Assembly: GCA_963971405.1 (NCBI GenBank)
Contig: OZ020489.1
Span: 22,470,290-22,534,289 of the forward strand
Length of the DNA stretch: 64,000 nt
Reading direction: 5' to 3'
DNA from: Psococerastis gibbosa
Lineage: Eukaryota > Arthropoda > Insecta > Psocodea > Psocidae
The translations under genes and the position numbers were made by a program. The notes under the pieces were generated by a model that saw nothing but the letters and a program-made list of their open reading frames with translations, had not been told where the DNA came from and searched no databases. This document shows, piece by piece, positions 6,701-49,600 of the stretch; positions within the stretch are counted from its first letter, which is position 1, and the number at the start of each line of letters is the position of its first letter.

Positions 6701-9700
6701 GGAAAGTTGCAACATTTTTACAAGAATGCTACAAGTTATCTAAGTCTTCTACATATTTTTTTTACACTTACACTTGCCCCTTCTTCTTTTTTCATTAATA
6801 TTGTACCCTCTGATGTCCAAACATATTTGACCAGTCTCTTCTTTAGTTTTATATATAATAATAATAATTCGTTTAATTCATTAAATAAACAATAGTGAAA
6901 ATTACAATATCAAAGCAAACCAAACGCGGGCACAGTAAAAAATCAACCGTTCAGGATGAAAAATAAAATTTGAATCCTTTTAATTGCATTGTTGTAATTA
7001 ATCATAATTGTTGCATCTAAGCGCGTTAGAAAAATTCCGTAGACTTCGACACGGTCTACAACTGATATATCAACACTAAGACAAGTGTATTATGCCATTG
7101 TTCAATCAGTAACTCAATACAGTATTCTGGCATGGGGTGGTACATACAAGATCCCCTTGTATCCGTTAGAAATAGCAATGAGAACGCCCATTCGGGTTGC
7201 TCTTCGCAAACCTTACCGCTACCATTCTACTTCTCTCTACAGAGTTCAATGTTTACCCCATAACGCTTCTCTACGCTGAACAACTCATTCTGTATAGATT
7301 CAAACGCCATGGAACGAAATATGGGCGTTTAGTTTTGGTGCACCATGGTGTTAATACCAGACTTGGTGCCGGTTGCAACCTCAAAGCCATCAAACCCATC
7401 CCAGAACATTACAAACATTCCCATATTTACATATCTATCGCTCTTTACAACTTTCTTCTTGAACATATAAAATTAGTAATCGTATAAAATCAATATTTCT
7501 GAAGGAATCTTAACAATAATAAAAACCTAATAATATAAAACTTCATTCTTTTCTTCTAAAATCATATACTTTCCTTATTTACATTGTCATCAATCATAGT
7601 TTATTATGTATTAATTTAACATAAGTATACAATAACACGTAGTTCAGTTTAGTTTAACTTAGTTCATTATAATTAATTTTACTATAAGGTCAGTTTAGTT
7701 TAGTTTAGATCACGTAGTGTTAGTGTTTAAGTTTCAATAAAACAATGGTTCAGTTTATTCCTTAGGGCCCTTACCATGAGAAAATGTAATAATTTTAAAA
7801 ACGTTTTGTACAAAAGGATTCAATTATATTTCATTTCATTTTTTGTCAGCGAAACCCAAATTTACACATTAAAATGAAACGCAGCCTACGTGCCACCTAT
7901 AGGGTTCTTTCTTTATTAAATTTAGGCAAGAGATGGCTATGATGGCATGAATTTTTAAAGTGCTCACTTCTTTTGAACAAAAAGAAAAAGGCAACTTAAT
8001 CTAGGGATTAATTATTGACGCCAAAATTTGATAGTGCTTTGTTCGCAACTTGAAATGCAAAACATATTCTCAGTGCAATTAAAACGTATTTTTTATTTCT
8101 TTTCAGACCTACTTAGGAAACTTTTGCGGCGGTCTTGGCGATGTGCTTGCTCCTGTTCTAAACGACAACGTTGCCGATTACATACGACGAATTTTATACT
8201 ATTACAAGGATGACATCAAGAATGCAATTATCACAGCGGTAACAAAAGTTTATTTTCATACTTCATAGCAATAGTAAAGTTATATATGTTTAAAAACATC
8301 AGCAGTAGACACGTTGGTTGACAGTAGGGATGTACTCGGGATGGGGGGACGGAAAAGACAAACCTCATGAGGAAGTTATCGTAATCAACATTATTAAAAC
8401 CTGCAGTCATATATTTATTCATATGTATCGTATATGTTATCCTCTAGCAACCACAGCAGCTACAATTTCAGCAAACCTTAGGTTTCTTAAGGCGCCCACT
8501 CCACCGACCGATAGAATTTTTCTTTTTATAGAAATCTATTAAAATGTTTGTACTTACCATATTCCATGACGCCATTTTTTAATTTTAGTTTATTTGTTTG
8601 TGAATTTACTCTATGATCATTGATCAATTTTAACTATGGCATAGAGGAAAATAAACATTTCCGTCAATTCTGCAATGCGAGGTCGGTGGAAACGCCACCT
8701 AAGTCTTGAATGTCTGCTACCACGTCACCGTTTTTGTAAAGAACCCTAGCCGGTCGGTGGAATGGGCGCCTAATGTCGATCTCCCTGGAAGAAGCCCGTG
8801 ATGGTAAAGCCACTAATTTTGGAGTGCCAAACCAAAATCGCATCGTACGTGCGAAAACCTGTAAAGAATTTCAGTGGAGTGATGGGACGTGCTGGATATC
8901 AAACCAGTCTGAAATCCATCGCGCCACGGCATTTGACGACCAAGTCGACAAATCGTCTGTGGGAAAACCGTGCGTCCGAAAGCTACACTCCAAGCTGTTG
9001 GCATGCCACACACAAGCGCTCAGAACAACAAAACTTCAGAAACTGGTGGAGCGTTGGCGCGGTGTGATCCCCCCTCTAGATTCATCGCCCCACAGCATCC
9101 ATTTGGCGTGTTGGAGCGTTGGCGTAGTGGAATTTAAGCGGTCGTGGGTGGCCAGCTCAGGCGGGATTTCCACATACGTCAATGGTCAATGGTAAATGTG
9201 GTATTGACGTTTTTGCAGACATTAAAGACATACTAAAAATGTCTGCTACCACGTCAAAACCATATTTACCATTGACGTATGTGGAAACCCCGCCTTAAGG
9301 GCTGATAGAATCCAGAGAGAAAGAAGGCAGTTATTTGCGTAGGATGTACGATATTGTCAACACGGCTTCTGCATTTTGTCACAAACAATTTCAGGCCGAC
9401 CTGGTTATTATTGTAAGATACATGCGATAAGAAATTAATTTTTTTTCCGCAAAAACAAAACTTTTATTGCTGACAGCTCGGACCGCGATCATCTCTATAG
9501 GTGGTAATAAATAATAAACCGTAATAAATATGGAGGCCCAGGATACTGGGTAGGTTCATTGCGATTATCTGCCATGTTCCCATATCTAAGCCTATAATGT
9601 AGTCGGTTGTCAAAAATGTATAGTCATAATTTTTGTTTTAGGTAAATGAATTCTTGCACGGGAAAAGCCTATCAGATCTGATAGATATAATCAACGGATT

Positions 9701-9773: not shown

Positions 9774-9932
9774 AAAATTTGCCCGACATTACAGTTTAAA
9801 TCACAAAGTATTTCTTCACTGTTTTGGATGTACATAGGAAGCCTGAAGGATCATTTGATTCATTCCAATTAGACACTGAACCAATTAGAATATAATATGA
9901 TTGCTCACAGAACGTACTCTGGCAAAAAGCCT

Positions 9933-9938
9933 AATAAA
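9933..9938 (+). promoter_or_regulatory. Polyadenylation signal AATAAA
   Basis: AATAAA, followed by further overlapping AATAAA repeats, lies about 160 bp after the TAA stop of the TULIP-like gene, at a normal distance for its 3' end. Confidence 0.5.
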
Positions 9939-9972
9939 TAAATAAATAAAATAATGTTGACTTTTTTTCTAT

Positions 9973-10165
9973 TACTAAGCCAACCCAGCGGAGTTAAAAT
10001 GCCTCTCTTACACTCAACTAGGTCACTAGGAAGACCCGGGACCGTCTGCTTTACATGCCCTCCGAAGCATGGCCAGAATAAGTAGCAAGTGTGGGACTCG
10101 AACCAACAACCTTTCGGGTGAAAGTCGGAGTCTGTACTGACAAGACACTAGAGACTGATTAGAGG
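9973..10165 (-). mobile_element. tRNA-derived SINE, family 1, copy 1
   Basis: On the minus strand this contains a B-box-like GGTTCGAGTCCCACACTTGC preceded by a tRNA-like head, and then a body ending near CTCCGCTGGGTTGGCTTA. Closely similar copies lie at 12600-12785 (minus) and 45065-45235 (plus). A tRNA-like promoter region with a shared body in dispersed copies is the usual SINE layout. Confidence 0.6.
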
Positions 10166-10464
10166 TTGAGATTCGAGCAAACCGATTACGGTAGGCTCAA
10201 AGTAATTACGTTAAATAATTAATGGGATGTCACCTAAACACCGTTAACATGCATAAGTTAATTTTTGGTCAGGCGGCAGGTAAAACCATAATAATAAATA
10301 ATGTATAAAAATACTGCATGAGGCTGTATTGGGGGAGGGGGCCGTTACAAAAAAAACTGCTGCAGTTTTACCAGGTTTTGCCATAGAATAATATTTACTA
10401 TAGAATGCTAGTCGTACGCAGATAATGGAGCAATGATTGATGACCCGCAATTTACAATCTCCTA

Positions 10465-11052: not shown

Positions 11053-11437
11053 GGCGCCCATTCCATCGACCGGCTAGGGCTATTGCTATTTACAAAAACG
11101 GTGACGTGGTAGCAGACATTCAAGACTTAGGTGACGTTTCCACCGACCTCGCATTGCCGAATGCAAATGACATTGACGGAAATTAGAATTTTTCTTTTTA
11201 TAGAAATCTATTAAAATGTTTGTACTTAGATATCCCATGACGCCAATTTTTAATTTTAGTTTGTTTGTGATTTTACTGTATCATCATTGATCAATTTTAA
11301 CTATGGCATAGAGGAAAATAAACATTTCCGTCAATTCTGCAATGCAAGGTCGGTGGAAACGCCACCTAAGTCTTGAATGTCTGCTACCACGTCACCGTTT
11401 TTGTAAAGAACCCTAGCCGGTCAATGGAATGGGCACC
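11053..11437. mobile_element. Composite palindromic MITE, 385 bp
   Basis: Starts GGCGCCCATTCCATCGACCG and ends with the complementary arm closing in GGGCACC, flanked by TTT on both sides. Each outer arm carries GACGTGGTAGCAGACATT followed by CAAGACTTA. There a second palindrome begins (GGTGACGTTTCCACCGACC) and runs to its own mirror end before the outer arm resumes. It is one of a back-to-back pair with the copy at 11477-11858. Confidence 0.9.
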
Positions 11438-11476
11438 TTTGGCCAGTGCACAGAATACTATAATATATCGGCCATA

Positions 11477-11858
11477 GGCGCCCATTCCATCGACCGGCTA
11501 GGGCTATTTACAAAAACGGTGACGTGGTAGCAGACATTCAAGACTTTGAGAATTCCATCGATCTCGCATTGCAGAATGCAAATGAAATGTTTGTTTTCCT
11601 CTATGCCATAGTTAAAATTGATCAATGATCATATAGTAAAATCACAAACAAACAAACTAAAATTAAAAAATGGCGTCATGGGATATGTTAAGTACAAACA
11701 TTTTAATAGATTTCTATAAAAAGAAAAATTCTAATTTCCGTCAATGTCATTTGCATTCTGCAATGCGAGGTCGGTGGAAACGCCACCTAAGTCTTGAATG
11801 TCTGCTACCACGTCATCGTTGTTGGAAATAGCCCTAGCCGGTCAATGGAATGGGCGCC
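11477..11858. mobile_element. Composite palindromic MITE, 382 bp
   Basis: Same structure as the neighbour that ends 39 bp upstream: outer arms with GGCGCCCATTCC ends and the shared core, and an inner palindrome with the CTATGCCATAGTT and TGATCAATGATCA centre. The flanks are ATA and TAA, so the 3-bp target duplication is not intact. Confidence 0.9.
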
Positions 11859-15254: not shown

Positions 15255-18200
15255 CTACTGTTCCACAATCCTGCCTCGCCCACGCCCACGAGAAGGTTTC
15301 TGTGGTGACTTCGCTCCTCCTGCAATAATACAAATAGCATTATTAAAATAAATTTTTCGCTGAATTCAGAAATAGAAAGAGTTCATGAAAGCTGAGAAAA
15401 CACTCCTAGCGGGTGAAAGTTGTCAATAACCAAAAACGTTTTCCGGAGGTTCTAGATTTCTAGATTTTTATTAAGACATAATAATAATAACGCCAATGAA
15501 ACATGGGACAATAGTCTTGGCTATTTTTCATCCTCTGAAAATGTTGATAATATCCGAATCCGAATGTATTAAAATCCCTTGTTTAATCTTAAGGAACACG
15601 GGCACTAATCTTGGACTTTTCGAAGATGATACTGTGAAACGATGAAATTGATTTCACGCAGGGCAGGCAATGGTTAGCGAAATAGATTCAGTGAAATACG
15701 GGTGCAATAGACAGGTTAACATTGTTTTTTTTTTTTTATAGTAAGCGTTTTTACAATGACAATTTTTTTCCATCATTTGTTTCATTTTATCGACTAGTCC
15801 AGATTAGTGGCCCAGATTTCATATTTTGTAAACAAGGAATGGTGTTTTTTTTTTCACGAAATTAATTAATTTCTCACTCCACAGCCGCTAAGATAAGAAA
15901 GTGGTCAGATGAAAAATTCATAAGAAATATAAGCTTTCCCTGGAAATTTACAAATCGCACCCGAAATACTATTAATTCCGAAACTGATTTCAAAGAATAA
16001 TGGTCAATAAGTAGGGGAAATAGACAGTTTTTTGAGAAACCTTTTGTTACGAATTTTTCATCTTACCAATTGCATATCTCTGCGGCTGCGGAACGAGAAA
16101 TTAATTAATTAAATCTAAAATAAACGTTGTTAACTAAATATTTTTAAATCTACCCTATAATGTTGGTAATGAATGGTATATAATTGGCAGTTAAATGAGA
16201 CCCCCTAGGGATAATTAGATTCACATAGTTAACTTAGTTTACCTGGCACTGGAGCACTGGCCTGAAACAAAAATAAACATATGTCAAGAAAGAATAATCT
16301 GTGGTTTATTTGATCTTTGGTCTATCTGGTCTGTAAGGCACTATATACTATATATATAGAGCCCTAGTCTGTGGTGTTATTGGTCGGTACTCTGTGGTTT
16401 TTAGAGTAGAGTGTGTTTTACATTGAAAGGAGTCTAAGGCGCTGATTCCACCAACGTCAATAGTGATAAATGTTTTTTGACGTGGTAGCAGACATTTTTA
16501 GACTGTCTAAGAATGTCTGCTACCACGCCAAAAAACATTTTATATCACTATTGACGATGGTGGAATCAGCGCCTTAGTAAGAAAGTCTTACACATAGTAG
16601 CATAGCAGAACGGATACCTGGACCCGGTCAAAAACTCTGTACTTAGCTTGTGCAGGCTACACTTATCACTGGTTTTCCCCGCCAAATTGCGTACTTATCT
16701 TGTGCAGGCTACACTAGCAGCCATATTGATAACGGTCTCCAGCCACTGGATGGAGTTGATTCAGTTGAATAAATAAATGATATTTAAAAATTAAAACGGA
16801 AAACTGATTTTTAATAACGAAGATTAGTTAGTTAATAGTTATTATTATTAGTTAGTCGGAACAACATAACTTAATAACAAAAATGATGCCAATTAGACCA
16901 AATTGCCGATATAAATGTTTAGCATATCGGGAATCGTAAGTTCCTACATTAGTCAATACATCAAAATGGACCTATTTTTTTATTTGTAGCGTTGAATGCA
17001 TCCGATGAAACCATCACCATGCGAAATTTCCAGACAGTCAGACATTTCTTTATGACCCCACATTTGTTGGATTTTTCTGTATTCCGAAAACAAAGAAAGT
17101 AACATCGGGCGCTAGGCTGAGCTGCGCATGGTTAAAAAAAAAAAAAAAACGAGCACCCGTCTTCACACCTTTTTCACAGAAATGAGCCTCACCCATGGCT
17201 CGTTACGTTGCTCCCAATCAAACCATCACTGAAGAGGGATGATGGCCTCGAATAACCATAGGAGTTTCTGGCGTACACCTTATCGTTGTGGGATTCTTCT
17301 GTGGTAAAATGGTTTTCTTCGGGAAAAAAAATATTTCTGTGGCCATTGTTTGCGTACTTCTTGAGTAGCACGCGCCTTCTTAAGCGTCTCAAAGTTTTCA
17401 GTCAATTATTCAATAGGTGGCCTTTCTTCCGTCGGATAGTATGGAGCTTTTTAGGTCTTAGGTTTTAGGGCCTACAGGTTTATGTATAAATGATCATAAA
17501 TTTATTTTTTTTTATTTTTTTTTTTTTTACCTTCGTGGGGCCTACTCGTTTGAGTTCCTATAAGCGTCGACCTAGAAGGTCTTTTGCTTCCACGTTTGCC
17601 GTCTACGCCCATCTTATAACACCAGTCTTTTTGATAAATTCTAGTGTTTTTGTGATGGGATTAGATCGGATGGTTTCCTCTTCAGACCTAGGGTGGCCAA
17701 GAGTTTGGTATCGAGTTTTTCCCAGCGCTTCACATTCAAAGAGAATGTGTTCAGCTGTTTCTTCTTCAACTTCACACAGTCTGCATCTACTGTCGTTTTT
17801 CACGCCAACCCTATGCATGTGTTTGTTGAAGTGGCCGTGGCCCGTAAGCGTGCCAACCACCCTTCTAGCTTGCTCTCTACTTAAAGAGAGAAGCTGATCG
17901 GTGAGCTTTTTACTAGGACCCGGAATAACCTTCTTAGCAAATCTGCTTTATTTTAATAATTAATATAACTTCGATGCAGGGGAGTACCGGCCGAAGAAGA
18001 ATAAAAATTATACCTGAGCAGAATTATTTTCGGCAAGAGACTGCATGCGCAGCCGTTCATTGTGAACGTATGTTTTGCGTGCTGATTTCCCATCATTGAG
18101 CTTCCCCATGAGAAAAACCGGCTTCTCCTTAATCACCGCATCTCGTTTATCGAGGTAGGACGTCTGATCTACCTGTAACAGCCACAGCACAGGATTACTG

Positions 18201-21200
18201 GCTACTATACTTCGGCGGGGTTTCCACCGACCTCTCATTGCAGAATGCACTTACGTTGACGTGGTAGCAGATATCATTAATAAAGGCGGGGTTTCCACCG
18301 ACCTCTTATTGCAGAATGCAAATGACATTGACGGAAATATTTGTTTTACTCTATGCCATAGTTAAAATTGATCAATGATCATAGAGTAAAATCACAAACA
18401 AAAATTAAAAAATGGCGTCATGGGATATGTTAAGTACAAACATTTTAATAGATTTCTATAAAAAGAAAAATTCAAATTTCCGTCAATGCCATTTGCATTC
18501 TGCAATGAGAGGTCGGTAGAAACCCCGCCATGAACTAGTAAAACTGAAACTTCGAACATTTCAATTACACTCTTGAGTGGACTAAGATATTTTCAATGAC
18601 CGCTTTGCTCTTGGGCGGTGTAGCAGTACCTGTCTTGGCTTGCCATGGCCACCATTAAACCAGCTTTGCACGATGATTGAGCTACGATCAGACTCGTGAG
18701 ATGGCCATCCGCGATTTCGCTGTTCAGACCGAGCGTAAGCGGGTGGTTTTCGCCATGAGTCAAATACAGTCGAAATTAAGTGACCCCACAACTTGGTCAC
18801 ATTTCCTTTAACATTTCCCTGCTATCGGCAATAAGTCGCTATTTAGGCAGTTCAGGCCTGCAGAAGCCTTTGAACAGTATGATTATTGAGGCCACAGCCG
18901 TGTACATCGCAATTATTCATACTATGGCAATTGCCAATTAATCAACTGTTGAAAAACAAAAGCTTAGGCTTTTTAACATAGATAGTCATGTCTTTCAATA
19001 GTAGGTCAATCAGATTGGCCTGGTCGATATAGGCAGCCCCAAGACCTGTTTGTACTGCGGAAACTGCGGAACTCATAGCAGGGCCGGCAGCCGGTGGGTC
19101 CTTCATGCCCTAGTTTCACCATATGGGCTCTGAAAGGACCCGTAACTAGGGTCACAGCCGTTTGAGCCATCTCTCCTCTGTCATTCAACCGCAGGTGAGA
19201 TGAATAATTTAAATGTATGCATTTTTGGGCGCTGACCGCCTAACCACTGCAAGCAGGCTACCGGAAGTGATGATAAGATAACTGTGATTCCATCAGTCAT
19301 GCCAATGGCCAGCCTACACTCGAAATATTCCTATTAATATAATTACAAAGACTTTCACGGCAGGAGTTACGTTATGAAACAGCAGAATCCGGGATGATAG
19401 ACCGTAATAGAACTGAAAAGGTACTTCCAAACGTTTCGTCAACAGCTGGAAGTACGCTTTTAGATCGATCACGGCCCATCATCCCGGATACTTCATCTTA
19501 TATTCCCCTTAATATTTTAAATTAATGCAACTTAAAATCTCATCTCATCGGCGAAATATTTTTGGTTCTTGTAAGCTAGTTAGGTAAGAGCAGACTTGTA
19601 GTACATGTACTCCAGTTCTCTACTACTACAGTAACACTCATGACCTTGTGAAAGAACGTATGATACCCAGCAGCCATCCGCTGCAGGCGCAGAAGTTACA
19701 GAGTTCGCAGTCGCTTTTATTACAAAAAAACTATTTACCGCGTCCCAGTCGTCAGTCGTAACATTATTTGCCTCTTTAAGTACTAAACCGCGAAGATCTG
19801 GAGCGCTAGGACCAACAGGTGTAGTGAACCTTTCAGCAAGACTTCTCTCTGGGCACGTTTTTAAGTGTTCCTGAAACGAAAGTTTATTATTATTTTACAT
19901 AGTATTTCGATGATGAAGATTCCATACATGTACCGGTCTAAGCTGAAAACTCTATTCTTCACAATCCCTTCGGATCAAGATTCCAGCATACCCACTAAAA
20001 ATAATTCATCCTATGAATGCAAGTCATTGGGCTCAGTATAAAGAATGTAATGCTAATGATTGCCAATAATCCATCAATCACAGTAAAGTTAATTTAGTAG
20101 TAGGCCTACCACAAAAACCGTAAATAATTTTAAAAGTGAACAGCCCGTAGGAAATTTACAGCCCGAAATTTAATACTTTTAATTAACAAAGCAAGTTATT
20201 TAAGATTTGGCGCATTTAAGTTGTAGAAGACTACTTCCTTCATCATATTATAATTATTACGGTATTTTTAGTGAAAAATCATCAAATGTTTTAGAACGTT
20301 TCTATTGTATGTTTAACTCCTTCGTTGGTTCTTATTGAAAACACATGAATAACAGCTGTATTTCTCATAATTTTTTCATTGCCGCTTATTTTATTGTACT
20401 TTAAATAAATAATCATTTATTGGCAAACAGACCTAAAAGTCCAATTAACCGCTAATCTACATGATGATCTGTGTATATAATTTTTTTTTGTTTAATTTAG
20501 AGTATGTATACTGTTGCTTATCTTAGGCGCCCATTCCATTGACCGGCTAGGGCTATTTCCAAAACGGTGACGTGGTAGCAGACACTCAAGACTTAGGTAG
20601 CGTCTCCACCGACCTCGCATTGCAGATTCCAAGTGACATTGACGGAAATGTTTTTTTTTTTTTTTATAGAAATCTATTAAAATGTTTGTAATTAACATAT
20701 CCCATGAAGCCATTTTTTAATTTTAGTTTGTGATTTTATTGTATGATCATTGATCAATTTTAACTATGGCATAGAGGAAAATAAACATTTCCGTCAATTC
20801 TGCAATGCAAGGTCGGTGGAAACGCCACCTAAGTCTTGAGTGTCTGCTACCACGTCACCGTTTTGGAAATGGTCCTAGCCGGTCAATGGAATGGGCACCT
20901 TAGGTCAAAGATTACGTATTAGGTTAACTAAATCTTTACCTGTATCGACATTCAACCTCAAGTTATCACAATTAGTAGTTCTACAGACAAGAGCAAATAG
21001 GTGTACTGTAATGTTTGAATATTATAGTATTAATTTATTGAATGGGCTCAAAACTATTATTTTTATAATGCCTAATTACATATCTTACGTCTATTTCACT
21101 GAAGTGCATGTAGTGGGTTCCGTTAAATGGACATATCTTCATAGGGGACAACGGGTAGTTTTTGGCACATTGTGCTAAATGGGTCTGCAATCGGGCCTTT

Positions 21201-23312: not shown

Positions 23313-26192
23313 TTATGTTTGAGCATCCCAGCTTATTTCCCTGAACTCGTCCAAGCTGTACAGTGGATATTCTTTAATTTTCCTTGTCACCACGGCCTTG
23401 TATCCTGAAAAATCCTTATTAGTAAGGCTGATGGGTAGGGCGTTGTAGTATCTCATTGCCGAGTTTGGGAATGATGCGATGGACCTACTCAGCCTGCATC
23501 CGGGCAGATCCAAACGGTGAGCATTTCTTGTGTTATGCAGATGGACAGTATTTCTTTCAGGGAACAGTTCTATGTTGGCTTTAATGTGCAGTAAGCATGA
23601 AAGAATATACTGGCTGTAAACCGTTGGAATGCCCATAGATGCAAACAGAGGTCGGCAGTGGTCTCTCCACCCGCTGGAAGCCACAATCCTGACAGCCTTT
23701 TTCTGTAACAAAAGAACATCGGCCACACCTGCAGAGTGACCCCATAAGAGTATGCCGTAGTTGATGTGGCTGTGGAAAAGAGCATAGTATGTCATTAGCA
23801 AATATTGTTTGGTGACCAAGTTCTTTAGTTTTCTTAACAGGAATATTACTTTAGAGAGTTTTTTACAAAGCTGCTCAGAGTGGGCAGTCCAATTCAACTT
23901 AGGGTCCACAGTGAAGCCCAACAGCTTAACACAATCCCTCTCCGTATTCGGGGTTCCAGTCTGGAGGGAACAGGTCATCTTTTGTGTCTTTCCTTCGTTA
24001 AGTATAAGCTTGTTGTCCTCGAACCACTGGGCTGCCGCCGCTAGCAAGGCATCTGCCATCATTCGAGCCTCGGTGAGTGAGGGGCCCCTACAGTATATAG
24101 TTGCATCGTCAGCAAATAGCAAGGTCTGCAAGCCTAAATCATTCACCATTATGAGGAACAGTAAGGGACCTAAGACAGATCCCTGAGGGACTCCGTACCT
24201 GACAGTCAGCCATTTAGAAATTGCTCCCTGAATGGACACACACTGCCGCCTGTTTGAGAGGTAGGAGATGAAGGTCTGAAGAACCACCCCATCTATTCCA
24301 TATTTCTTTAGTTTCTCAAGCAACACCGCATGGTTAACACAATCGAAAGCTTTGCTGAGATCACAGAGGGTGAGTGATAGAGACTGGCCATTTTCAAGTG
24401 CCCCCAGTATCTCCTTAGCCAAAGAAAGAAGTGCGCTGGTTGTAGATCTACCTTTCCTAAACCCGTGCTGGTTTGGGTTAAATAGGCCATTGCTCTCGAA
24501 GTACTCCATTAATTGGCAGTTCATGACAGTCTCAAATACTTTAGCTAATGTTGGTATGATTGATATTGGCCTGTAGTTTGAGAGAGCAGAGGGGTCACCC
24601 TTCTTAAATACAGGAATAGTTCTAGCCATTTTTAATTCGTCAGGGAACATTCCAGCTTGTAGGCAGATGTTTACAACAATGCAGATTGGCTCTGCTAATA
24701 TGTCTATCACCGACTTAAGCAATTTGGGGGACAGACCATACACATCCAGGCTATCAGAGTTTTTAAAGCCCTTTACCATCTTGGTTATTTCTATGGGAGT
24801 GACCATCCTCCACCTATGGAACCTGGTTGGTGCTCTCGGCACCCTATCGACAGGGTTCCTTCCGGATACTGGGATTAGGTCTACCATTTGAACCACCGAA
24901 TCAACAAAAAAGTTATTAAAATCATCGGGACTGTTTTGTGTGGAAGTTTTAGATGGTAGTTTCCTCTCTTTGTTGACAATTTGCCAAGCTACTTTACTGG
25001 GGTTTGCCGCATTAACAATGAGATTAGTGTTAAAGGCTTTCTTTGCGGTACATACCTTTGTTCGATAACACTTCTTACATCTTACATAGTCGAGATAGCA
25101 GCGGTTTCTGTATTCATTGTCAACTGCATTTTTATATAGGTCATTTAACAAAAGCACCCGGATTCTATGTCGTCTTAATTCGTCATTATACCACGATTTT
25201 TGGGGCTGTTGCCTATGCTTTGGCGGCCCTGGTTTATTCACAGCTGGGAAGCAATGGTCTATTGCACTATTAATTGCCTTTAAGAACCTATTGAATGTGG
25301 CAGGTGGGTCGGTATGGTCTACAAGACTTTGCCACCTGACCTGAGCCAGGCTCTCATAGAACGCACGTTTGGCCTCATCACTAATTTTCCTCGACTGGAA
25401 AAAGTAATTTGGAGCCCAGGAGATGCTTTCCCCAATTTGCTTGTTCAGTACAGCTTTCAATACAACCGCGCGATGGTCAGCAACAACTGGCTCTACAGTC
25501 GTGACTTCATGGACATAGGTAGAGGCCACAGTGTCAATGCAAGCCGCGCCCCTCGTTGGCTCGTAGTTTCCAACATGCAAACCATAAGTGTTCATTATAT
25601 TTAAAAAAGCGGTTTTAAGGGCATTGTCACTCTCCAAGTGGATATTTAAGTCCCCGCCTAGTATAAGTGCATTATAGCGGCGTGACAGACACATAAGGCA
25701 AGCATCAAGCGACATGAAAAAATGGTCTATTGAACCATCAGGAGACCTGTATACGGATAAAATTACTGTAGACGATTCATTAAGCTCTATTGCCGAAAGT
25801 TCTATATCTAGTTCGGAAGAAAATTTTGAAACGTCTACCTCTTTGTATAAGATGTTCGGTCCAGTGTACACGGCCGTGCCTCCTCTCTCCCGTCTATCAC
25901 GACAGTAGGCACTTGCCAGTTGCAGGTGACCAACTGCGGAAAAGAACTGAGTCTCGTCCTTCCTCATCCAGTGCTCACTGATGCACAAAATATCAGGAGG
26001 AGACTCATCAGTAAAAGATTCAACTAAGTTGAATTTGGACCGGAGACACTGAACATTTAAAAATACAATCGTTAGTTCTCTCTCTTTCCGGGTCTTGACA
26101 GGGTGTTTAACATTCAACGGGCCAGTGGTATGGTGTGGGAGGCTCCTGTCCAGCGCAGGAGCGACAAGAAGTTTTTTATAAACAGTCCCCAT
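23313..26192 (-). CDS. LINE ORF2: endonuclease and reverse transcriptase, open
   Basis: One uninterrupted frame of 959 residues. The apurinic-type endonuclease comes first: VFLNVQCLRSKF near residue 43, ISEHW with the catalytic Glu near 72, GGDLNIHLES, and the terminal DHRAV. The reverse transcriptase follows: FKKGDP and NYRPIS, then HGFRKGRST, DLSKAFDCVNH, YGVPQGSVLGPLLF and the active-site FADD, then a thumb with LLGFTVDPKLNW. It copies its RNA at a nicked target (target-primed reverse transcription). The initiator Met lies inside ORF1, so translation may start by re-initiation. With no stop or frameshift visible it may have been active recently, although the 5' end of the element is missing. 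Confidence 0.85.
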   Translation of the reverse strand: MGTVYKKLLVAPALDRSLPHHTTGPLNVKHPVKTRKERELTIVFLNVQCLRSKFNLVESFTDESPPDILCISEHWMRKDETQFFSAVGHLQLASAYCRDRRERGGTAVYTGPNILYKEVDVSKFSSELDIELSAIELNESSTVILSVYRSPDGSIDHFFMSLDACLMCLSRRYNALILGGDLNIHLESDNALKTAFLNIMNTYGLHVGNYEPTRGAACIDTVASTYVHEVTTVEPVVADHRAVVLKAVLNKQIGESISWAPNYFFQSRKISDEAKRAFYESLAQVRWQSLVDHTDPPATFNRFLKAINSAIDHCFPAVNKPGPPKHRQQPQKSWYNDELRRHRIRVLLLNDLYKNAVDNEYRNRCYLDYVRCKKCYRTKVCTAKKAFNTNLIVNAANPSKVAWQIVNKERKLPSKTSTQNSPDDFNNFFVDSVVQMVDLIPVSGRNPVDRVPRAPTRFHRWRMVTPIEITKMVKGFKNSDSLDVYGLSPKLLKSVIDILAEPICIVVNICLQAGMFPDELKMARTIPVFKKGDPSALSNYRPISIIPTLAKVFETVMNCQLMEYFESNGLFNPNQHGFRKGRSTTSALLSLAKEILGALENGQSLSLTLCDLSKAFDCVNHAVLLEKLKKYGIDGVVLQTFISYLSNRRQCVSIQGAISKWLTVRYGVPQGSVLGPLLFLIMVNDLGLQTLLFADDATIYCRGPSLTEARMMADALLAAAAQWFEDNKLILNEGKTQKMTCSLQTGTPNTERDCVKLLGFTVDPKLNWTAHSEQLCKKLSKVIFLLRKLKNLVTKQYLLMTYYALFHSHINYGILLWGHSAGVADVLLLQKKAVRIVASSGWRDHCRPLFASMGIPTVYSQYILSCLLHIKANIELFPERNTVHLHNTRNAHRLDLPGCRLSRSIASFPNSAMRYYNALPISLTNKDFSGYKAVVTRKIKEYPLYSLDEFREISWDAQT

Positions 26193-29009: not shown

Positions 29010-29150
29010 GGTGGTGTTTCCACATACGTCAATGGTCAATGAGAAATATGGTTTAGACGTGGTAGCAGAATTTTTAGTATGTTTTTAATTTCTGCTAAAA
29101 CGTCAATTTCACATTTCTTATTGACCATTGACGTATGTGGAAACCCCTCC
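29010..29150. mobile_element. Hairpin MITE, 141 bp, TGA duplication
   Basis: Runs from GGTGGTGTTTCCACATACG to CGTATGTGGAAACCCCTCC and is flanked by TGA on both sides. It is a diverged copy: the core reads GACGTGGTAGCAGAATTTT on the left. It ends 81 bp before the ATG of the coiled-coil gene, so it lies in that gene's promoter or 5' UTR. Confidence 0.85.
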
Positions 29151-29230: not shown

Positions 29231-32200
29231 ATGACCGCCGTTGATACGTCTAAATGCGAATATTATAGCAAATTTGTTGCAAGGGAAATAATGACACGGT
29301 CGCACAACATTGTTGTGGGGGTAAGTCAAATTAAGTCCTAGTAAATATATCTACTACATACATTGGTAATTTCGGAATGATGCCGACGTTCTGACCAATC
29401 TGACCGCAACTTCCCAACAAAGCAATCCAGCAATGGTCAAGAAAGAGGATCCTCTACCAGTCCTCGATGGTTTGTGGTGCCCATGCCAATGCAAAAATTC
29501 GAACTAAATTGGGCTGTAACTAAAAAACTATACTTTTCCGATTTTTAATTCTTTCGGAAATGGGTTTCTTTAAAGCTAAATCAACGATATAGAACCAAAT
29601 TTTGTGATTCTATGGGGTAGCTAAACTACACCTTTACCTTATTTTTGATTGATTAGTCCCGGTTCAAAATGTGATATGTTATTGGTTATTTTCAGATGAA
29701 CCAAGAAATGATGGAATTGGACAGAGTTGAGAAGGTTTATTCCTCCAAAGTAACTTTCCTGGAAAAATGTTTGAGGGATATAAATAGTGTTAAAGGTTAG
29801 TGACTTATTAATAATTTAAATGTTCACATACTGTATGTTGGTACTCTTCGATCCGATAATGCCAGACTCAGCTGTAGTCTGTCTAAAAGTAAGCGATATC
29901 CACACCATCATACCAAAAAACAGAAGGCAATGTTCTCCGAATTGAAACTGACGCTAAACCCCTAAATTTCCCGTGGACCCTTCAATTGTATTCGACCGTT
30001 AAATTGAGCGGGCCAAATAATGAATTTAATTGTTGGTTATACAACGCAATGAATTATCAACTAGGTACTGTGTCGGTCTCTACAATAAAGATATCACCCA
30101 GTCGTTTCACATTAAATTTTATAGACTATTTGAAAACATACTGCCTACTTAAATATTTTTTTTTTTACATTAATTTAAGGCCACGCTTGTGGCATATGCG
30201 CCAAGACTCTAAGTTGTCTTAGTAGTTATATCGCTTTTAGGAGCTCTGTATGGTGGAGAAAGGCTGAAAGTGAGATGACATTACTAACGTCGTCTCCCAG
30301 GATTAGAGGGAATGTTGATTGTATGTTGTACATTGCACGGGCTGTTTGATAGTTGGGGCAATCTGCAAGTATGTGTTCAACAGTAAGTAGGCAAGCATAC
30401 TGGTTACATTGGGGTGGTTCAAGCCGGCGCGACCGTGGCTAAAGCTGCGGCTTCCTTGGCAGCTTTGTCTGCACAGTCATTGAGCATGGCTCCTGAATGG
30501 GATGGCAACCATATAACAATAATCTTGCCGATTAAGTGGGCCAATTCTGTAATTTGGTGAGCCAGTTCCCCTCTTCTTACATACGAAGAGATAGCTTGAA
30601 CGGCACTGAGACGGTCTGTGTAGATAACCGGGGTTGCTGACACTGGGCACAGTAAAAGGCATTGTAAGATCTATGTATAGCTCTGCAGTAAAAACTGAGT
30701 TAGCAGGATGTAGGTGGAAAAGGAATTTTTCTTTGCTGGCTGAAACAAAGGCCGCACCAACCTCTTCTGTGTCAGATTTGGAGCCATCAGTGTAGAACTG
30801 AAGATAGGGCCGGCTTAAGTATTTCGCACGCATCATGTTTATGTATTTTTGGATGAAGAGGGGTGAGATATATTTTTTTTCTCCTAAGAGTCTTAAATCG
30901 TCATGGATAATAATTTTGGGATAATGCCAGGGTGGGTGGTTAGTAGATTAAATAATTATATTGTTACAAATGGAAAGTGTTAAATTTTCAGAAGACTATA
31001 AAAATCTCGAGCAGCAGATTAAAAGCAGTGAGAGGGAACAATGCAAATTAATAGGGACGGTAATACAGCCGGCTCTGAAAGCAACTCAGAAAATGCTTAA
31101 TCAGCTTGAGGAAATGGAATCCGGTGAAATCGAAGCCATAGTTGACTTTGAATCTGTATTGGACAAACGAACGCAAGTCTTCTTGGACATGCTTAAAGAA
31201 TATGTAAGTCTGTAATTATTCCTTAAATTCTTCTCGGGCCATTGGCGTGTGGAAGCATACGGCTTCTGAACTGTTCTAAAGCATGTGTCATGTCTAACGT
31301 TCCATCCTTAGGAGTGTACAGCCCGTAGGAAATTGGCAGTCCGAAATTTAATACTTTTTATTTTTTATTTAATTAACTAAACATGTTATTGAAGATTTGG
31401 CTCATCAAAGTTGTAGAAGACTACTTCATGCATCATATCATAAAATATTTTTATTTTCGAAATTTTAGTTTTTTCATAAACATACAAATATTTTATAAAC
31501 AAGAACTTTTCACGTATTATCGATTTTATAAAAAAAACTACAATTTCGAAAACTAAAAATACCTTATTACATGATGCATGAAGTAGTCTTCTACAACTTT
31601 GATGAGCCAAATCTTTAATAACATGCTTAGTTAATTTTTTTATTCGCTTGCTGACAATGGAAGTACTCAAAACTTATTCTAATTGTACAGGTTGCCAAGA
31701 GGTTCCCTGCTTTTAGTCAAATTAAAGATAGATTTTATCAGCCGCTACCCCTCATTCTAATGCAATTCAAATTGGAATTGCTAAGGATGCGTGCATAGTG
31801 TACACGGGGAATATGATGGTAGATGCTCAAATACAGTACATCCAAGAAACGGAAGGCGCCGACTGTTGTTTATTATCTTTAATTAACGATTCAGTTAATT
31901 TACTTCAATTAACGATTCAGTTTAAGATTGTTGTAAATATATATGTACTATAAACTGTATATGGGAAGTCAGTAAACGTTGCATTGCCGTACTGGATCGT
32001 TTACTTGGTACAAGTCTGTGCGCCTTACCCTTTGTTTCAATGTGACAAACCTCGAATTGCTCATCGCCGCTTTTATCGAAGTACTTTACTAGGAGGTATG
32101 TAAAAAGCCAAAATAATTCCGAAACAAATATGAATTGGATAATGTTTGACCAACAGTGAGGTCGTTTACGTAGTAGAAGGTGCAATGGGCCACGAGCCCT

Positions 32201-34042: not shown

Positions 34043-34573
34043 GGCGCATATTCCACCGACCGGCTAGGGCTAAATACAAATACGGTGGCGTGGTAGCAGA
34101 CATTCAAGACTTAGGTGGGGTTTCCACCGACCTCGCATTGCAGAATGCAAATGACATTGACGGAAATGATTGTTTTGGCGGGGATTCCCCCAACGTCAAT
34201 AGTGATATTAAATGTTTTTGACGTGGTAGCAGACATTTTTAGACAGTCAAAAACTGTCTGCTACCACGTCAAAAAACATTTAATATCACTATTGACGTTG
34301 GTGGAATCAGCGCCTTTCCTCTATGCCATAGTTAAAATTGAACAATATCATACAGTAAAATCACTAACAAACTAAAATTAAAAAATGGCGTCATGGGATA
34401 TGTTAAGTACAAACATTTTAATAGATTTCTATAAAAAGAAAAATTCTAATTTCCGTCAATGTCATTTGCATTCTGCAATGCGAGGTCGGTGGAAACCCCG
34501 CCTAAGTCTTGAATGTCTGCTATCACGTCACCGTTTTTGTATCTAACCCTAGCCGGTCGGTGGAATCCCCGCC
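34043..34573. mobile_element. Three-level nested palindromic MITE
   Basis: The outer palindrome starts GGCGCATATTCCACCGACCG and ends in ATCCCCGCC. The inner palindrome starts GGTGGGGTTTCCACCGACC right after GACTTA in the left arm and ends before TAAGTCTTGAATG. A third, complete hairpin (34177-34314) sits inside the inner one. The site is flanked by a 29-bp direct repeat (34014-34042 and 34574-34602) differing at one base, built on AAGTCAAAGTCGAATCTAAT. Confidence 0.9.
34177..34314. mobile_element. Hairpin MITE inserted in another MITE
   Basis: 138 bp from GGCGGGGATTCCCCCAACG to CGTTGGTGGAATCAGCGCC, with TTT on both sides. Uninterrupted copies elsewhere read TTGTTTTCCTCTATGCC at this point, which shows the empty site. 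The central loop is TTTAGACAGTCAAAAA. Confidence 0.9.
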
Positions 34574-38020: not shown

Positions 38021-38022
38021 AA

Positions 38023-38050: not shown

Positions 38051-38565
38051 TCTTTATTGAAAAAAATAATTAGTTTAATTGAAATATAGTTTTGTAAACT
38101 ACATTCATACAGAATATCAGTCAAACCTTCCATTTCAGAGAACAGTCACACTAATTCGCTACCATCTACGTTCACACTCACATTTTCTCACACATTCACA
38201 CGCAGCTTTGCCTTCATCAACCGGTGACAGTGCCTTCCTGACTAAGGAAAAACTTGTAATATTTATTTTTGAATACGTTGAGAGAATTTATATTGGTTTG
38301 AAGCAAGCGCTATATCGCGCACTAGTAAAGTTGTGATTTAATTTTCAGTAGCATATGAGGTTATTGATCTAGCTCTTACGTTGAGAGAAGGAAAGGCACG
38401 AATTTCTATGGGTATCGAGTTCTATACAGTGAAGAGGAAGAGATAGAAATGAAGAGTGGAAGATTCGGGAATGAGAGAGATTAGAAGGAGGTCGTCCCCA
38501 CGAATATTATAGCTTGCGGATACAGTGTTTCTTGTTGGAATCTGACTTGCAGCAGCTTTTCAAAA

Positions 38566-38704
38566 GCGGGGATTCCACCAACGTCAATAGTGATAGTAAA
38601 TGTAGTTTTGACGTGGAAGCAGACATTAAAGACATACTAAAAATGTCTGCTACCACGTCAAAACTACATTTACTATCACTATTGACGTTGGTGGAATCCC
38701 CGCC
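38566..38704. mobile_element. Hairpin MITE, 139 bp, near-perfect
   Basis: Starts GCGGGGATTCCACCAACGTC (the first G of the usual GGCG is replaced by A) and ends CGTTGGTGGAATCCCCGCC. The arms pair almost perfectly, with one visible mismatch in the core (GTGGAAGCAG). The loop is about AAAGACATACTAAA. The right flank is TAA. Confidence 0.9.
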
Positions 38705-39014: not shown

Positions 39015-39397
39015 GGCGCGGTTTCCACCGACCGGCTAGGGCTAAATACAAATATGGTGACGTGGTAACAGACATTCAAGACTTAGGCGGGGTTTCCACC
39101 GACCTCGCATTGCAGAATGCAAATTACATTGACGGAAATTAGAATTTTTCTTTTTATAGAAATCTATTAAAATGTTTGTAATTAACATAACCCATGACGC
39201 CATTTTTTAATTCTTGTGATTTTACTCTATGATCATTGATCAATTTTAACTATGGCATAGAGTAAAACAAACATTTCCGTCAATGTCATTTGCATTCCGC
39301 AATGCGAGGTCGGTGGAAACCCCGCTTAAGTCTTGAATGTCTGCTACCACGTCACCGAATTTGTATTTAGCCCTAGCCGGTCGGTGGAAACCCCGCC
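39015..39397. mobile_element. Composite palindromic MITE, TAA duplication
   Basis: 383 bp from GGCGCGGTTTCCACCGACCG to GGTCGGTGGAAACCCCGCC, flanked by TAA on both sides. Outer and inner palindromes are both complete. It lies in an intergenic region 113 bp from a second copy. Confidence 0.92.
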
Positions 39398-39510: not shown

Positions 39511-39890
39511 GGCGCCCATTCCATTGACCGGCTAGGGCTATTTCCAACAACGATGACGTGGTAGCAGACATTCAAGACTTAGGTGGCGTTTCCACCGACC
39601 TCGCATTGCAGATTGCAAATGACATTGACGGAAATGTTTTTTTTTTTAAAAATAGAAATCTATTAAAATGTTTGTAATTAACATATCCCATGAAGCCATT
39701 TTTTAATTTTAGTTTGTTTGTGATTTTACTGTATGATCATTGATCAATTTTAACTATGGCATAGAGGAAAATAAACATTTCCGTCACTTCTGCAATGCGA
39801 GGTCAGTGGAAACGCCACCTAAGTCTTGAATGTCTGCTACCACGTCACCGTTGTTGGAAATAGCCCTAGCCGGTCAATGGAATGGGCACC
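39511..39890. mobile_element. Composite palindromic MITE, 380 bp
   Basis: Runs from GGCGCCCATTCCATTGACCG to GGTCAATGGAATGGGCACC, with flanks TAT and TTA. It has the same outer and inner palindromes as the neighbour at 39015-39397, which it joins in a close pair as at 11053-11858. Confidence 0.9.
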
Positions 39891-40327: not shown

Positions 40328-40620
40328 CTTATTACATTGTAGTATTATATGGTACATATAACACTGGCATTAAATTAACTTTGGTTGAAGAGGTAACCTC
40401 CTCGTTATAACCGAAATTAGAGGATATGGAAAAAAACTGGGCTTGGCGGGATTCGAACCCACGATCTACGCCTAACCGGGGCGTCGTCTTAACCGCTGGA
40501 CCACAAGCCCCGACAAGTCCAGTAAATGCCAAATCCCGGTGAGGCGTAGATCGTGGGTTCGAATCCCGCCAAGCCCAGTTTTTTCCATATCCTCTAATTT
40601 CGGTTATTATATTGAACCAT
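40328..40620 (-). mobile_element. tRNA-cassette element, partly palindromic
   Basis: On the minus strand there is a full unit: head GGATTTGGCATTTACTGGAC, a tRNA-like module (40510-40438), a T7 run, and a body CCATATCCTCTAATTTCGG continuing to a CTACAATGTAATAA tail. Next to the head, in opposite orientation, lies a second partial unit (40533-40612) that starts inside the tRNA-like module and ends in the body. The arrangement resembles the copy inside the copia element at 59402-59938. Confidence 0.7.
40438..40510 (-). tRNA. tRNA-like module, probably not a functional tRNA
   Basis: 73 nt that fold as a full cloverleaf: acceptor GGGCTTG/CAAGCCC, D arm GTC...GAC, anticodon stem ACGCC/GGCGT, T arm GTGGG-TTCGAAT-CCCGC. 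Box A (TGGTCCAGCGG) and box B (GGTTCGAATCC) are good, and a T7 terminator follows. The anticodon loop CCGGTTA has C where tRNAs have U33, and the anticodon would be GGT, which animals do not normally use. It is therefore a tRNA-derived part of a repeat. Confidence 0.5.
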
Positions 40621-42816: not shown

Positions 42817-42891
42817 TATATACTGAGTTTATTTCCATATTAGTTCTTCTATTTATTCTATGAGCGTCCGCAAGTTGTACAGGCATTTGAC

Positions 42892-46600: not shown

Positions 46601-49600
46601 AATCCATTAAATCCATTATAAAAAAAACTTTAACTTTACTTTCTATAAATTGACAGATTTAGAGTTGTGTCCTTTTTCTTCCGAAGTAGCGATATCTGTA
46701 TCGTACATTGATATACATGGATTGCTACCACGGCACCTAGCCCACGCTGAACAAATGTCTTCAATTTTGGTCACGTGACAAAAAGGGTTATTATGGCAAG
46801 AAGTGGTTGACTCCATTGCGTTCAATGCGATTTAGACGTATTTCATTGCCTGTTATTTAATCTATTTACCCATTTATTGAGTTTTTCTTTAGTTTGACAT
46901 AATGGTCATATCTTGCTCTGCTTATAAATGCACCAATAGGCTCAAGATATGTCGAGAAACGGGGGAAAATATTACTTTTCACAAGTAAGTGTTCGCATGG
47001 TTTGGTCATTAGTTGAGGCAGCATTTATGGGTTTATTTCAGTTTTCTTAATCATTATGTTAACAAATTGCACACCTCCAATTGTCCTCAAGGCCGTAGCC
47101 AAGGGGGGATCCTTGGGGGGGCGGGGGGGGGGCCGGGGCCACCCCCCCCCCCCCGAGAGAAATAGCATTATTCCCCCCCGAAAACTTTCTGAAACCGTCC
47201 CTGCCCCGAAATGAAATGGCTTGACACTAGATTTTGAGAGGAAACATAAAAACCACTATGTAATTAAATTCCTGCAGCCTAAGTAGGCCTAGTCCTGCAG
47301 AACCTAACTTTTGATAGTGAATAAAAATAGCGAAACACTACACTATAAGGCAAATTTACAGAGGAAAAAAGTGTTTTTATTTCCCATTTGGGCGAATTTT
47401 GTGGCTTTCTTGTAAATCACACGTACTGCAAAATGTCTAAAAATTATTAGGCTTATTGATATTGACATCCCTAAATCAACAGCATTGGCCTACTACACTG
47501 CAATATTTTTTCATCGATGATAGCACACAGAATATTCTCATCGTGTAAGCATAATAAGTAGGCTATGAGATTTAAAAATTCGAATGCCGGTGTGGGTGGA
47601 TCAGGGACGGATCCAGCTCATGGGGGGGGGGGGGTAGCTGTGGGTCGAAATAGGAAAAACCTATATAGTATCGATTACGATTAAATCAGAGCGTTATAAA
47701 AATTAACTTATAAAATAGATTTACTGAATTTTTTTTTGGGGGGGGGGGGATATCCGCCCCCCTGTCTCCGTCCATGGGGTGGATCCAGGGGGCGGTTGGG
47801 AACCTGCCTCCCTGTATCCGTCCATGGGGTCTAACCAGAGTGACTACTTATTCTTTTTATATTCTCCTTATTCTAGTTGAAGTGTAGTCATGGACAGATG
47901 AAGGGGGGAGCTGCCCCCAAAATCTTATAAGCTAGCCTGTTGTAAGTTGCCTAACTTATTACGTTATAATGTAAAGGATACTACATATGTTTATTATATT
48001 TTGAGCCAAATAACCCCCCCAATGGGCTGGATCTACTCCTGGTATAGGTAGGAGTTTAACACTTCAAATTTAGTCCCAATGCAATTAAATAGACGAACAT
48101 GGTTAGATTGGACTAAATAGTTTGACTATATTTTGTTAAATTGCTGCTTGACACAATTTTTCTTAGTAACATATTCCTAGCTAAATATTAATAAATCTTC
48201 ATAAATGCCGGTGTGTGACCATAGAATATTGTTCTATAATAAATAAATAAATATTACAAAAACAGAAAATGTCAATTAATCGTATTAAAAAAATTATTGA
48301 AATACATCAAATTTACACGTAAGTGTATATGGCATGGAACGCTTCTGCCATAATATCCAAGATATCAGGTTTTGTCTGTTGCCGACATCCCTAGCGTTCC
48401 TGGTGTATTTCCAGTGTATATATATATATAGTTCAGTGGTATCTTACCTTGAATAGAAAGGAATAACCAATATGGCGGTGATTAAGGCCAGGTACACACG
48501 GACTATTCTCGCAGTCGCGATTTGCCGACATCTTTACTATTATAGCCATACAAAGGGCTATCAGACAAGTTCATGACGATTTCGTAAGCTGGCGTGAAAC
48601 TGGCCTTTCCCCCTAGACACGCCAGATCATAGAAATCTTTTGAAGTTGACTCTGTGGGTTTGTACCAACCATTCACCAAGGCCTATTTCTATAATGGAAA
48701 AGACTCGGCAAATCACGTCGTGTGGAATCGTCTGTGTGTACAAGAGGAAGAGCCAATCATTCACGTTTTTATGTAGTCTATAGGTCTATGCGTACAATAT
48801 GTAGACTGATAGTGGAATCAAAGAAAATACTAGCATTTTCAAAGTACTATGCACTTTTTTGTGGTAGCCATGTTAAGTTTTAATTTCTTTTTACATTCAG
48901 AATTAACTAATTCTCTACTGGCCGCACAAGCATTCGTATTTTTCGTTGCTGGCTTTGAAACTTCGTCAACTACCATGAGTTTTGCTTTGTATGAGCTGGC
49001 CAAAAACCCAGTCATTCAAAAAAAGGTGGTAGAAGAAATTCACGATGTCCTTAAAAAACATGGCGGAGTAATTACCTACGAATCATTACACGATATGCAA
49101 TATCTAGACATGGTTGTATCGGGTAAGTTATTTATAAATTTTTAATTCTCATAACAATTAAGATTGAATACCAGTATTCGCAAAAGTATTTCCAAAAGCC
49201 AGCTGTCATCAAAGTACAATAATAGAGTACCTACAATTAAGGTGGCAAAAAATGTATCCTAATTCTGTTGTCCTATCCTATATTTATGAATAGTAATATA
49301 TCAAAACCACCCATGTTGGAGATGAATGATGGCGTTAGGCGCAATGTCCACCGACGTCAATAGTGATAGTAATGGTGATATTGACGTGATAGCAGACATT
49401 AAAGACAGTCTAAAAATGTCTTCTACCACTTCAATCACGTCAATATCACAATTATTATCACTATTGACGTCGGTGGACTTTGCGCCTCAATGCGAAATCA
49501 TTGAGGTTCATTTGTGACGTCATTTTGTAGATGGCAGCACCAGTTGCTAAGATATCAAAGCGTTGATTTTTCCATAAACCTCAATAATTATTTTATTTAT

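Follow-up and report, generated by a model that had tools for sequence, protein, structure and literature searches.

The ends of the palindromic MITEs found in the stretch of DNA analysed here (64,000 bases in all, hereafter the window) carry a terminal tip and, at a near-constant distance inside it, an 18-bp core, and we consider, with a probability of about two in three as judged from the sequence, that tip and core together form a bipartite transposase-binding end. A single transposition machinery would then serve several families of the PIF/Harbinger (PHIS) type, as this two-part signal is retained at every end. According to this proposal, the 18-bp tip GGYGNNNNTTCCAYNNAC would be the place of cutting, while the core (T)GACGTGGTAGCAGACATT, starting about 44-46 bp inside, would be gripped either by the transposase's own DNA-binding domain or by a DNA-binding partner, for which the Myb-like ORF1 protein of the PIF/Harbinger superfamily is a candidate; Harbinger ORF1 is reported as TIR-binding in the available part of PMC2836001. 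The grip on this site, which is four helical turns away from the tip, would position the DDE nuclease there, at the tip, and staggered 3-nt cuts would be made at T-W-A sites, best with a C just outside. The sequence of the spacer between tip and core may drift, its length hardly, and coreless elements would travel within core-bearing ones as composites.

Allowing up to three mismatches, the window contains 26 matches to the core, 12 of them exact (shuffle mean 0.01), and all 26 sit within 14 elements or parts of elements, one of them nested in another (34177-34314), which agrees with the at least fourteen core-bearing elements of one superfamily proposed by the initial annotation. That proposal would have been undermined had the core been absent from most copies in the genome; instead, the 409-Mb genome contains 24,101 exact copies (11,990 + 12,111), where 0.004 are expected under a first-order Markov estimate and where a genome-wide exact search with the reversed core pattern returned none. 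The window is core-rich, with 187 exact copies per Mb versus 59 per Mb genome-wide; blind tiles (40 kb) hold one exact copy (25 per Mb). A collection of 257 billion bases of prokaryote sequence gave three stretches with the core versus about seven expected for random sequence, that is, chance level, and viral contigs gave none.

By size, the elements of the window include simple palindromes (135-149 bp), composites (374-385 bp) and rearranged or nested cases (280 and 531 bp). These elements are short, non-coding, high in copy number and bounded by inverted ends, as MITEs are, and no open reading frame of at least 150 aa is listed inside those of the window. Short palindromes of D type lie at 9160-9294 (spacer ATACGTCAATGG; cores 9206-9223(+), with three mismatches, and 9238-9255(-); flanks TCA/TTA) and 29010-29150 (cores 29056-29073(+) and 29087-29104(-); flanks TGA/TGA). 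Those of C type are found at 16438-16573 (spacer AACGTCAATAGTG; cores 16479-16496(+) and 16512-16529(-); non-matching flanks TAA/TTA), at 38565-38704 (cores 38610-38627(+) and 38642-38659(-); flanks AAA/TAA) and at 34177-34314 (cores 34220-34237(+) and 34253-34270(-); flanks TTT/TTT, a duplication backed by the paralogous sequence TTGTTTTCCTC in the element 11477-11858), and a C-like one with the spacer GACGTCAATAGTG lies at 49338-49486 (cores 49383-49400(+) and 49415-49432(-); flanks TTA/TCA). The composite B+A elements occupy 11053-11437 (cores 11103-11120(+) and 11376-11393(-); flanks TTT/TTT, the left one within a T run), 11477-11858 (left inner part degenerate; cores 11521-11538(+) and 11797-11814(-); flanks ATA/TAA), 20526-20899 (cores 20569-20586(+) and 20839-20856(-); flanks TTA/TTA), 39015-39397 (cores 39059-39076(+) and 39336-39353(-); flanks TAA/TAA) and 39511-39890 (cores 39555-39572(+) and 39829-39846(-); flanks TAT/TTA); another, at 34043-34573, is split within its A part by the C-type palindrome 34177-34314 (cores 34087-34104(+) and 34512-34529(-); non-matching flanks TAA/TTA). 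A rearranged B-type element at 8491-8770 bears a core in its right arm (8709-8726(-); flanks TAA/TAA), and at 18214-18529 an A'-type arm with a core at 18258-18275(+), with two mismatches, precedes an A palindrome that has no core (18285-18529), and a clean duplication is absent. The elements thus do vary in length, as had been noted, but partly through nesting: those of about 380 bp consist of an outer palindrome whose halves are separated by another palindrome from the same superfamily, the inner A, which is without the core. This composite is amplified as one unit, and no B element lacking the inner A palindrome, which would represent its empty site, was present among the sampled loci.

The spacing between tip and core was determined in a sample of 303,138 bases containing 98 cores with up to three mismatches, which are not independent of each other. 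The tip GGYGNNNNTTCCAYNNAC lies 39-47 bp outside the core in 86 of the 98, with a mode of 44, and 12 break the rule; at random positions a tip falls at that distance in 14 cases out of 4,000. Since the distance from core to tip is fixed in this way, the earlier idea that the core is a commonly bound site is strengthened, although the site is still a putative one. When ten arm representatives are compared pairwise, cores are 83-100% and tips 61-94% identical, but between groups, 22 of the 33 spacer pairs show no greater likeness than shuffled sequence (5% level), while the adjoining cores remain 94-100% identical in pairs without E-type arms and 83-89% identical in those with them.

These spacers also bear on plain common descent from one ancestral palindromic MITE, of which tip and core would be the undiverged remainder with no need of a binding site. 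Whole-arm descent does explain part of the likeness, because the remaining 11 of the 33 pairs exceed 95% of shuffles in likeness (1.7 expected). A clear relationship is also seen among the spacers of C, D and H (0.78-0.86 aligned) and in the pairs G-Gz, G-Ap, G-Am and Ap-Am (0.59-0.74), the groups being loose in that Gz does not exceed shuffle level against Ap or Am. The copies, diverging on average by 7-11% from the majority, are also old enough to have drifted apart. However, descent without selection should not wipe out 26 bp and yet spare the adjacent 18 bp in parallel lineages, nor does it account for spacers whose length is largely held and whose sequence is not, and we regard it as unlikely to be the whole explanation. 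Even less probable is a reading of the core as a host transcription-factor or chromatin site, such as a bZIP/UPRE-like TGACGTGG box, that aids landing or persistence in active chromatin and is no site of the transposase. A T precedes GACGTGG in 72 of the 75 cores with at most one mismatch, giving a TGACGTGG box that resembles UPRE/CRE boxes, and E-type arms bear further TGACGT repeats; however, this box spans no more than 7 of the core's 18 bases, and the binding of a transcription factor requires no fixed distance to a transposon tip.

As to their superfamily, the elements probably belong to PIF/Harbinger (PHIS), as palindromic MITEs that are not autonomous. Inverted ends beginning with GG are typical of PIF/Harbinger, and in the 49 outer elements of the sample that could be read fully, and that were located by the GGYG motif with up to three mismatches, 94 of the 98 ends start with GG and 86 with GGYG, in keeping with the GGCG-type ends already described. 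Flanking triplets are identical in six of the 14 window elements (TAA/TAA and TTT/TTT twice each, TTA/TTA and TGA/TGA once each), two have TAA/TTA, five differ otherwise and 18214-18529 lacks a clean pair; the initial annotation therefore named the triplets of its 3-bp duplications (TAA, TTA, TTT and TGA) correctly, but fewer than half of the pairs in the window match. Genome-wide, 1,447 elements with exact GGCGGGGTTTCC ends (one tip variant) comprise 319 with TTA/TTA, 296 with TAA/TAA, 135 with TAA/TTA and 91 with TTA/TAA, so that 841 have T-W-A on both sides and 42% do not; identical TTA or TAA pairs make up 615 of the 1,447, which upholds the 3-bp duplications while showing triplet identity to be poorer than assumed. 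Immediately beyond the triplet, 45 of 98 flanks have a C (46%, versus a background of 18.8% C), 21 a T and 14 an A. Because the sites are 3-bp T-W-A triplets with C enriched outside, the flanks fit movement of PIF/Harbinger (PHIS) type, as had been suggested, and the superfamily is described with 5'-TWA-3' duplications in the available part of PMC4482050. TGA had been singled out as lying off the usual TWA target, and it is indeed rare (TGA/TGA plus TCA/TCA, 26 of 1,447), but this is rare use and not a contradiction, given that mPing flanked by TGA or TCA is tolerated when its excision is assayed in yeast (PMC4561436, in the passages available).

Two other memberships do not agree with the flanks: the passages available from PMC4482050 give the ISL2EU duplication as the dinucleotide AT, whereas the flanks here are mostly T-W-A, and the TTAA duplication of piggyBac and CMITE elements is not seen, C (45/98) being the commonest base outside the triplet. 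Genes with DDE_Tnp_4, of PIF/Harbinger and ISL2EU types, are present in many genome copies, these types being assigned by eye with Pfam run on L025, L054 and L056 only. The autonomous element with the same termini and a transposase that the initial annotation had proposed to look for was not found at seven PIF/Harbinger-type and five ISL2EU-type loci with their flanks; around the former, the search took in about 1.1-3.1 kb a side and reached about half of roughly 15 families (counted by eye). Brute-force TIR finding around DDE genes also yielded nothing. Five high-scoring DDE_Tnp_4 loci (L025-L029) were rejected as partners, since they read as ISL2EU-type and are not enclosed by a tip with core. 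In L025, THAP, DDE and YqaJ domains lie in separate ORFs, and one MITE at 3336-3497 of this locus is the sole tip-with-core around the five.

The most interesting lead is provided by the mixed TTA/TAA duplications. They account for 226 of the 841 elements with T-W-A on both sides (26.9%) in statistics that rest on the single tip variant GGCGGGGTTTCC, and for 9 of 26 T-W-A pairs in the 303-kb sample. Simple mutation is rejected as their main source by two substitution controls, which they exceed 2.8- to 6.3-fold: per flank, there are 113 mixed pairs versus 18 for a centre transition (p = 4e-22), a control that may include carried-over triplets, and 41 for an outer A/T change (p = 2e-11), which may include true T-T-T targets. 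In-place inversion or copying of an arm plus its flank (palindromisation) is also rejected, as it predicts about 9.6 TGA/TCA-type pairs beside the 26 matching ones and one was found. A possible, though tentative, source is carry-over from the donor, whereby excision would leave a 3-nt 5' overhang of the donor T-W-A on the element and this overhang would anneal across the gap at the new site, with a central mismatch resolved at random. The excess over both controls and the near-absence of TGA/TCA-type pairs are as expected, and the simple model predicts 25% mixed pairs, close to what is seen (17-23% after subtraction of the two mutation estimates); cleavage of the TSD with a 5' overhang has been proposed for mPing in the accessible portion of PMC4561436. 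On the other hand, mutation may cover up to 82 of the 226 mixed pairs if the outer A/T control is taken as the measure, the two mixed classes differ in size (135 versus 91, p = 0.004) in a way not predicted by random resolution, and the available text of PMC4561436 has mPing with TCA/TCA flanks inserting in yeast at TTA/TAA in 45 of 46 cases and at TCA in one, which speaks against carry-over in that system. Ectopic recombination or gene conversion between copies, uniting left and right flanks of different insertions, would likewise mix TTA and TAA and has ample substrate in thousands of similar palindromes; however, about 34-45% of elements would have to be recombinant, implying massive rearrangement, and we hold it to be distinctly improbable. 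Should carry-over hold, a wider and somewhat more speculative scheme is that the 3-nt overhang stays on the excised element and seals the new site in piggyBac fashion, so that duplications are partly donor sequence, while the core four helical turns in fixes the geometry and enables a single enzyme to mobilise families sharing little beyond their tips. The single passage available from PMC10288884 on TSD, overhang and inversion holds nothing on mixed duplications.

The present elements share GG-type ends with Tourist-type/PIF-Harbinger MITEs. Such elements (mPing and relatives) resemble the present ones in being short and non-coding, in their 3-bp TTA/TAA duplications, in a site preference beyond the triplet and, for mPing, in tolerating TGA/TCA as TSDs in excision assays (available parts of PMC4561436 and PMC2836001). 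In contrast, the elements described here are near-complete palindromes, have a core at a near-fixed distance that is common to families with mostly dissimilar spacers, show non-matching triplets in about a quarter of T-W-A pairs and have no autonomous partner at the seven PIF/Harbinger-type loci. The NuwaII group of the PHIS superfamily, for which the passages of PMC4482050 give a 3-bp TNA duplication with C preferred outside (C|TNA|G), shares the enrichment of C, but C stands there in only 46% of the flanks here (45/98), and no transposase is linked to them. A precedent for differing ends with a conserved internal region is found in the CMITE families of Acropora corals, about 100 bp long with piggyBac-type TTAA sites and a conserved 75-base internal region (PMC2872659, as far as available), whereas the present elements also share their tips and have a 3-bp site.

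Families that combine a shared tip and core with differing spacers amount to a natural mutational scan of a transposon end, from which the needed bases and spacing can be read. About a quarter of the T-W-A-flanked copies in the present count have non-matching duplications and would escape software that demands identity. To our knowledge, the step at which the ends of PIF/Harbinger elements are cut and sealed is not settled, and the mixed TTA/TAA flanks constitute a trace of it that can be counted genome-wide.

The 18-bp core GACGTGGTAGCAGACATT is matched 26 times in the window at up to three mismatches, where shuffled sequences give an expectation of 0.01, and a genome-wide search returned 24,101 exact copies against none for the reversed control pattern (409,210,807 bases, 68 contigs); the MITE superfamily that the initial annotation had proposed from this common core is thus real. 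Exact cores reach 187 per Mb in the window compared with a genome average of 59, and blind tiles totalling 40 kb held one. Beyond this genome the core occurs at chance level, with three stretches in a prokaryote genome collection and none in a viral one.

The core is accompanied by the tip, the conserved terminal motif of each arm. In a sample of 303,138 bases (the window plus 35 loci, part of them picked for containing cores, with L003 excluded for its overlap with L002), the tip (up to two mismatches) lies 39-47 bp outside 86 of 98 cores (up to three mismatches), compared with 14 of 4,000 random positions; six of the remaining cores have a tip at another distance and six have none within 130 bp. 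The typical tip-to-core distance of 44-46 bp is about four helical turns. Among ten arm-type representatives compared pairwise, core identity is 83-100% and tip identity 61-94%. When the spacers between them are placed in four loose groups (arm types C/D/H/E, G/Gz/Ap/Am, B and F), 22 of 33 between-group pairs are at shuffle level (5%) and 11 exceed it, versus 1.7 expected, so that spacers are dissimilar for the most part, though not entirely.

Fourteen core-bearing elements or parts are present in the window. Simple elements are palindromes of 135-149 bp, each arm running from tip through spacer and core to a short loop, while elements of about 380 bp are composites, in which a B-type outer palindrome is interrupted midway by an A-type palindrome having the same kind of tip and no core. 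Because TTA and TAA flank the inner A in 17 of the 19 rows listed (one of which, 11130-11787, joins arms from two adjacent composites), we infer that A inserted once and that the composite was afterwards amplified as a unit; 16 aligned composites share a mean pairwise identity of 84%. A C-type element (34177-34314) is in turn nested within a composite with a TTT duplication, and the equivalent position in 11477-11858 reads TTGTTTTCCTC, which supports the 3-bp duplication. At locus L020, three core elements (5090-5229, 5506-5645 and 6090-6229) have the left flank ATCAGTTA in common and nearly identical right flanks; this trio (5090-6229) is a MITE captured within a repeat.

Other repeats also populate the window. 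Further long inverted repeats (1204-1690, 28318-28731, 31371-31636 and 50536-50822), in which the search found no core, possibly represent other MITE families. Inverted tRNA-Thr-like pairs (40431-40584 and 59401-59861; anticodon GGT by ARAGORN; arms of 50-133 bp, 95-98% complementary) look like a palindromic repeat derived from tRNA. One of them separates the ORFs of a copia element and overlaps them in part. These are a gag-like ORF recognized by eye (58853-59482), which runs into the repeat, and a downstream pol ORF of 996 aa (60212-63202) with Pfam RVT_2 and gag pre-integrase, the integrase core falling below the cut-off. Two long non-LTR retrotransposon-like ORFs (23313-26192 and 54341-56299, both on the minus strand) contain RVT_1, the latter additionally RNase H and zf-RVT.

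Genomic flanks were counted by pattern for 1,447 elements whose two ends are both exact GGCGGGGTTTCC and whose total length is 124-154 bp. Written left/right, the pairs comprise TTA/TTA (319), TAA/TAA (296), TAA/TTA (135), TTA/TAA (91), TTA/TCA (7), TGA/TAA (11), TGA/TGA (14), TCA/TCA (12), TGA/TCA (1), TCA/TGA (0), TTA/TTT (17) and AAA/TAA (24), 927 in total, the other 520 being left untyped. Some genome matches share trailing digits across contigs or megabases (C2:1449677, C14:1249677 and C14:11149677; C2:28867752 and C2:47867752), whether by coincidence, duplicated assembly blocks or a coordinate artefact, and could slightly alter the counts concerned. Among 49 fully read outer elements, 22 pairs match, nine are mixed TTA/TAA and 18 are of other kinds; restricting the set to elements flanked on either side by TTA or TAA (T-W-A) leaves 17 matching and nine mixed pairs. 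C stands directly outside the triplet in 45 of their 98 flanks, versus a background of 18.8%. This set is what remained of 79 candidate rows after 30 were dropped: 19 inner A elements, four mis-paired AGGGC starts, two tRNA-like rows, one GGTATATA repeat, an ATT/AAT pair (L017 6321-6481) and three with an uncertain paired end (L018 8112, L024 49 and window 18285); 8491-8770, paired later by eye, lies outside it. A 3-bp T-W-A site, tips starting with GG and a C on the outer side are consistent with PIF/Harbinger or NuwaII of the PHIS superfamily as described in PMC4482050, in line with the PIF/Harbinger-type movement first suggested. The duplications of ISL2EU (AT) and piggyBac (TTAA) mismatch this site.

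Where both flanks are T-W-A (841 pairs), the centre base differs in 226 (26.9%). The candidate source that remains is the mixing of two independent triplets, either by recombination between copies or by the donor's triplet being carried along on an excised end. Carry-over predicts 25% mixed pairs by our own arithmetic (donor and target differing half the time, each side resolved at random); against it, TAA/TTA is commoner than TTA/TAA (135 to 91, p = 0.004), and in yeast, 45 of 46 new insertions of an mPing construct flanked by TCA/TCA were at TTA/TAA (PMC4561436). That paper also describes more precise repair of TAA/TTA than of TTA/TAA sites after excision, with a 5' overhang proposed. If mutation of matching pairs were the source, other single changes should be about as frequent; counted per flank, 113 mixed pairs compare with 18 centre transitions (p = 4e-22) and 41 outer A/T changes (p = 2e-11), so that 144-190 of the 226 (17-23% of 841) are in excess of it. 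In-place inversion or copying of one arm plus flank would both convert TGA/TGA to TGA/TCA, and about 9.6 such pairs are expected where one was found (P = 0.0007).

DDE_Tnp_4 genes are numerous in this genome (150 of 220 first-look candidates scored). On reading, five high-scoring loci taken with their flanks (L025-L029) look like ISL2EU, and a second set, with 93 matches to one query, like PIF/Harbinger. An autonomous element with the same termini, envisaged by the initial annotation, did not emerge from seven loci of the latter type (L050-L056), whose flanks (about 1.1-3.1 kb per side) carry tip with core only in ordinary MITE insertions (L052 and L055); the parent is thus either extinct or outside the loci sampled. 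At L054, a neighbouring ORF is MADF/BESS-like by eye, with no Pfam hit. The ISL2EU-type transposon at L025 (219-4407), with THAP, DDE_Tnp_4/HTH and YqaJ on separate ORFs, harbours a core MITE (3336-3497); since several genome relatives keep its 375-aa frame open, recent activity of this type is suggested.

Four points are new: tip and core at a near-constant distance in arms whose spacers are mostly dissimilar, nesting as the origin of the long elements, the genome-wide scale of the superfamily, and a measured surplus of TTA/TAA duplications whose two copies differ. A natural genome-wide class of the last kind is announced in none of the titles and abstract openings surveyed (PMC2836001 included), which mostly do not extend to the subscription literature, nor by term search in the accessible text of PMC10288884; the consulted part of PMC4561436 treats such duplications as tested constructs and reports no such class. 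Coral CMITEs, as presented in the part of PMC2872659 consulted, are a precedent for an internal region conserved across MITE families. A spacer that is nearly free in sequence but keeps its length, with a conserved block on either side, would be the trace of a two-point protein contact, and tip and core may accordingly be read as one putative signal.
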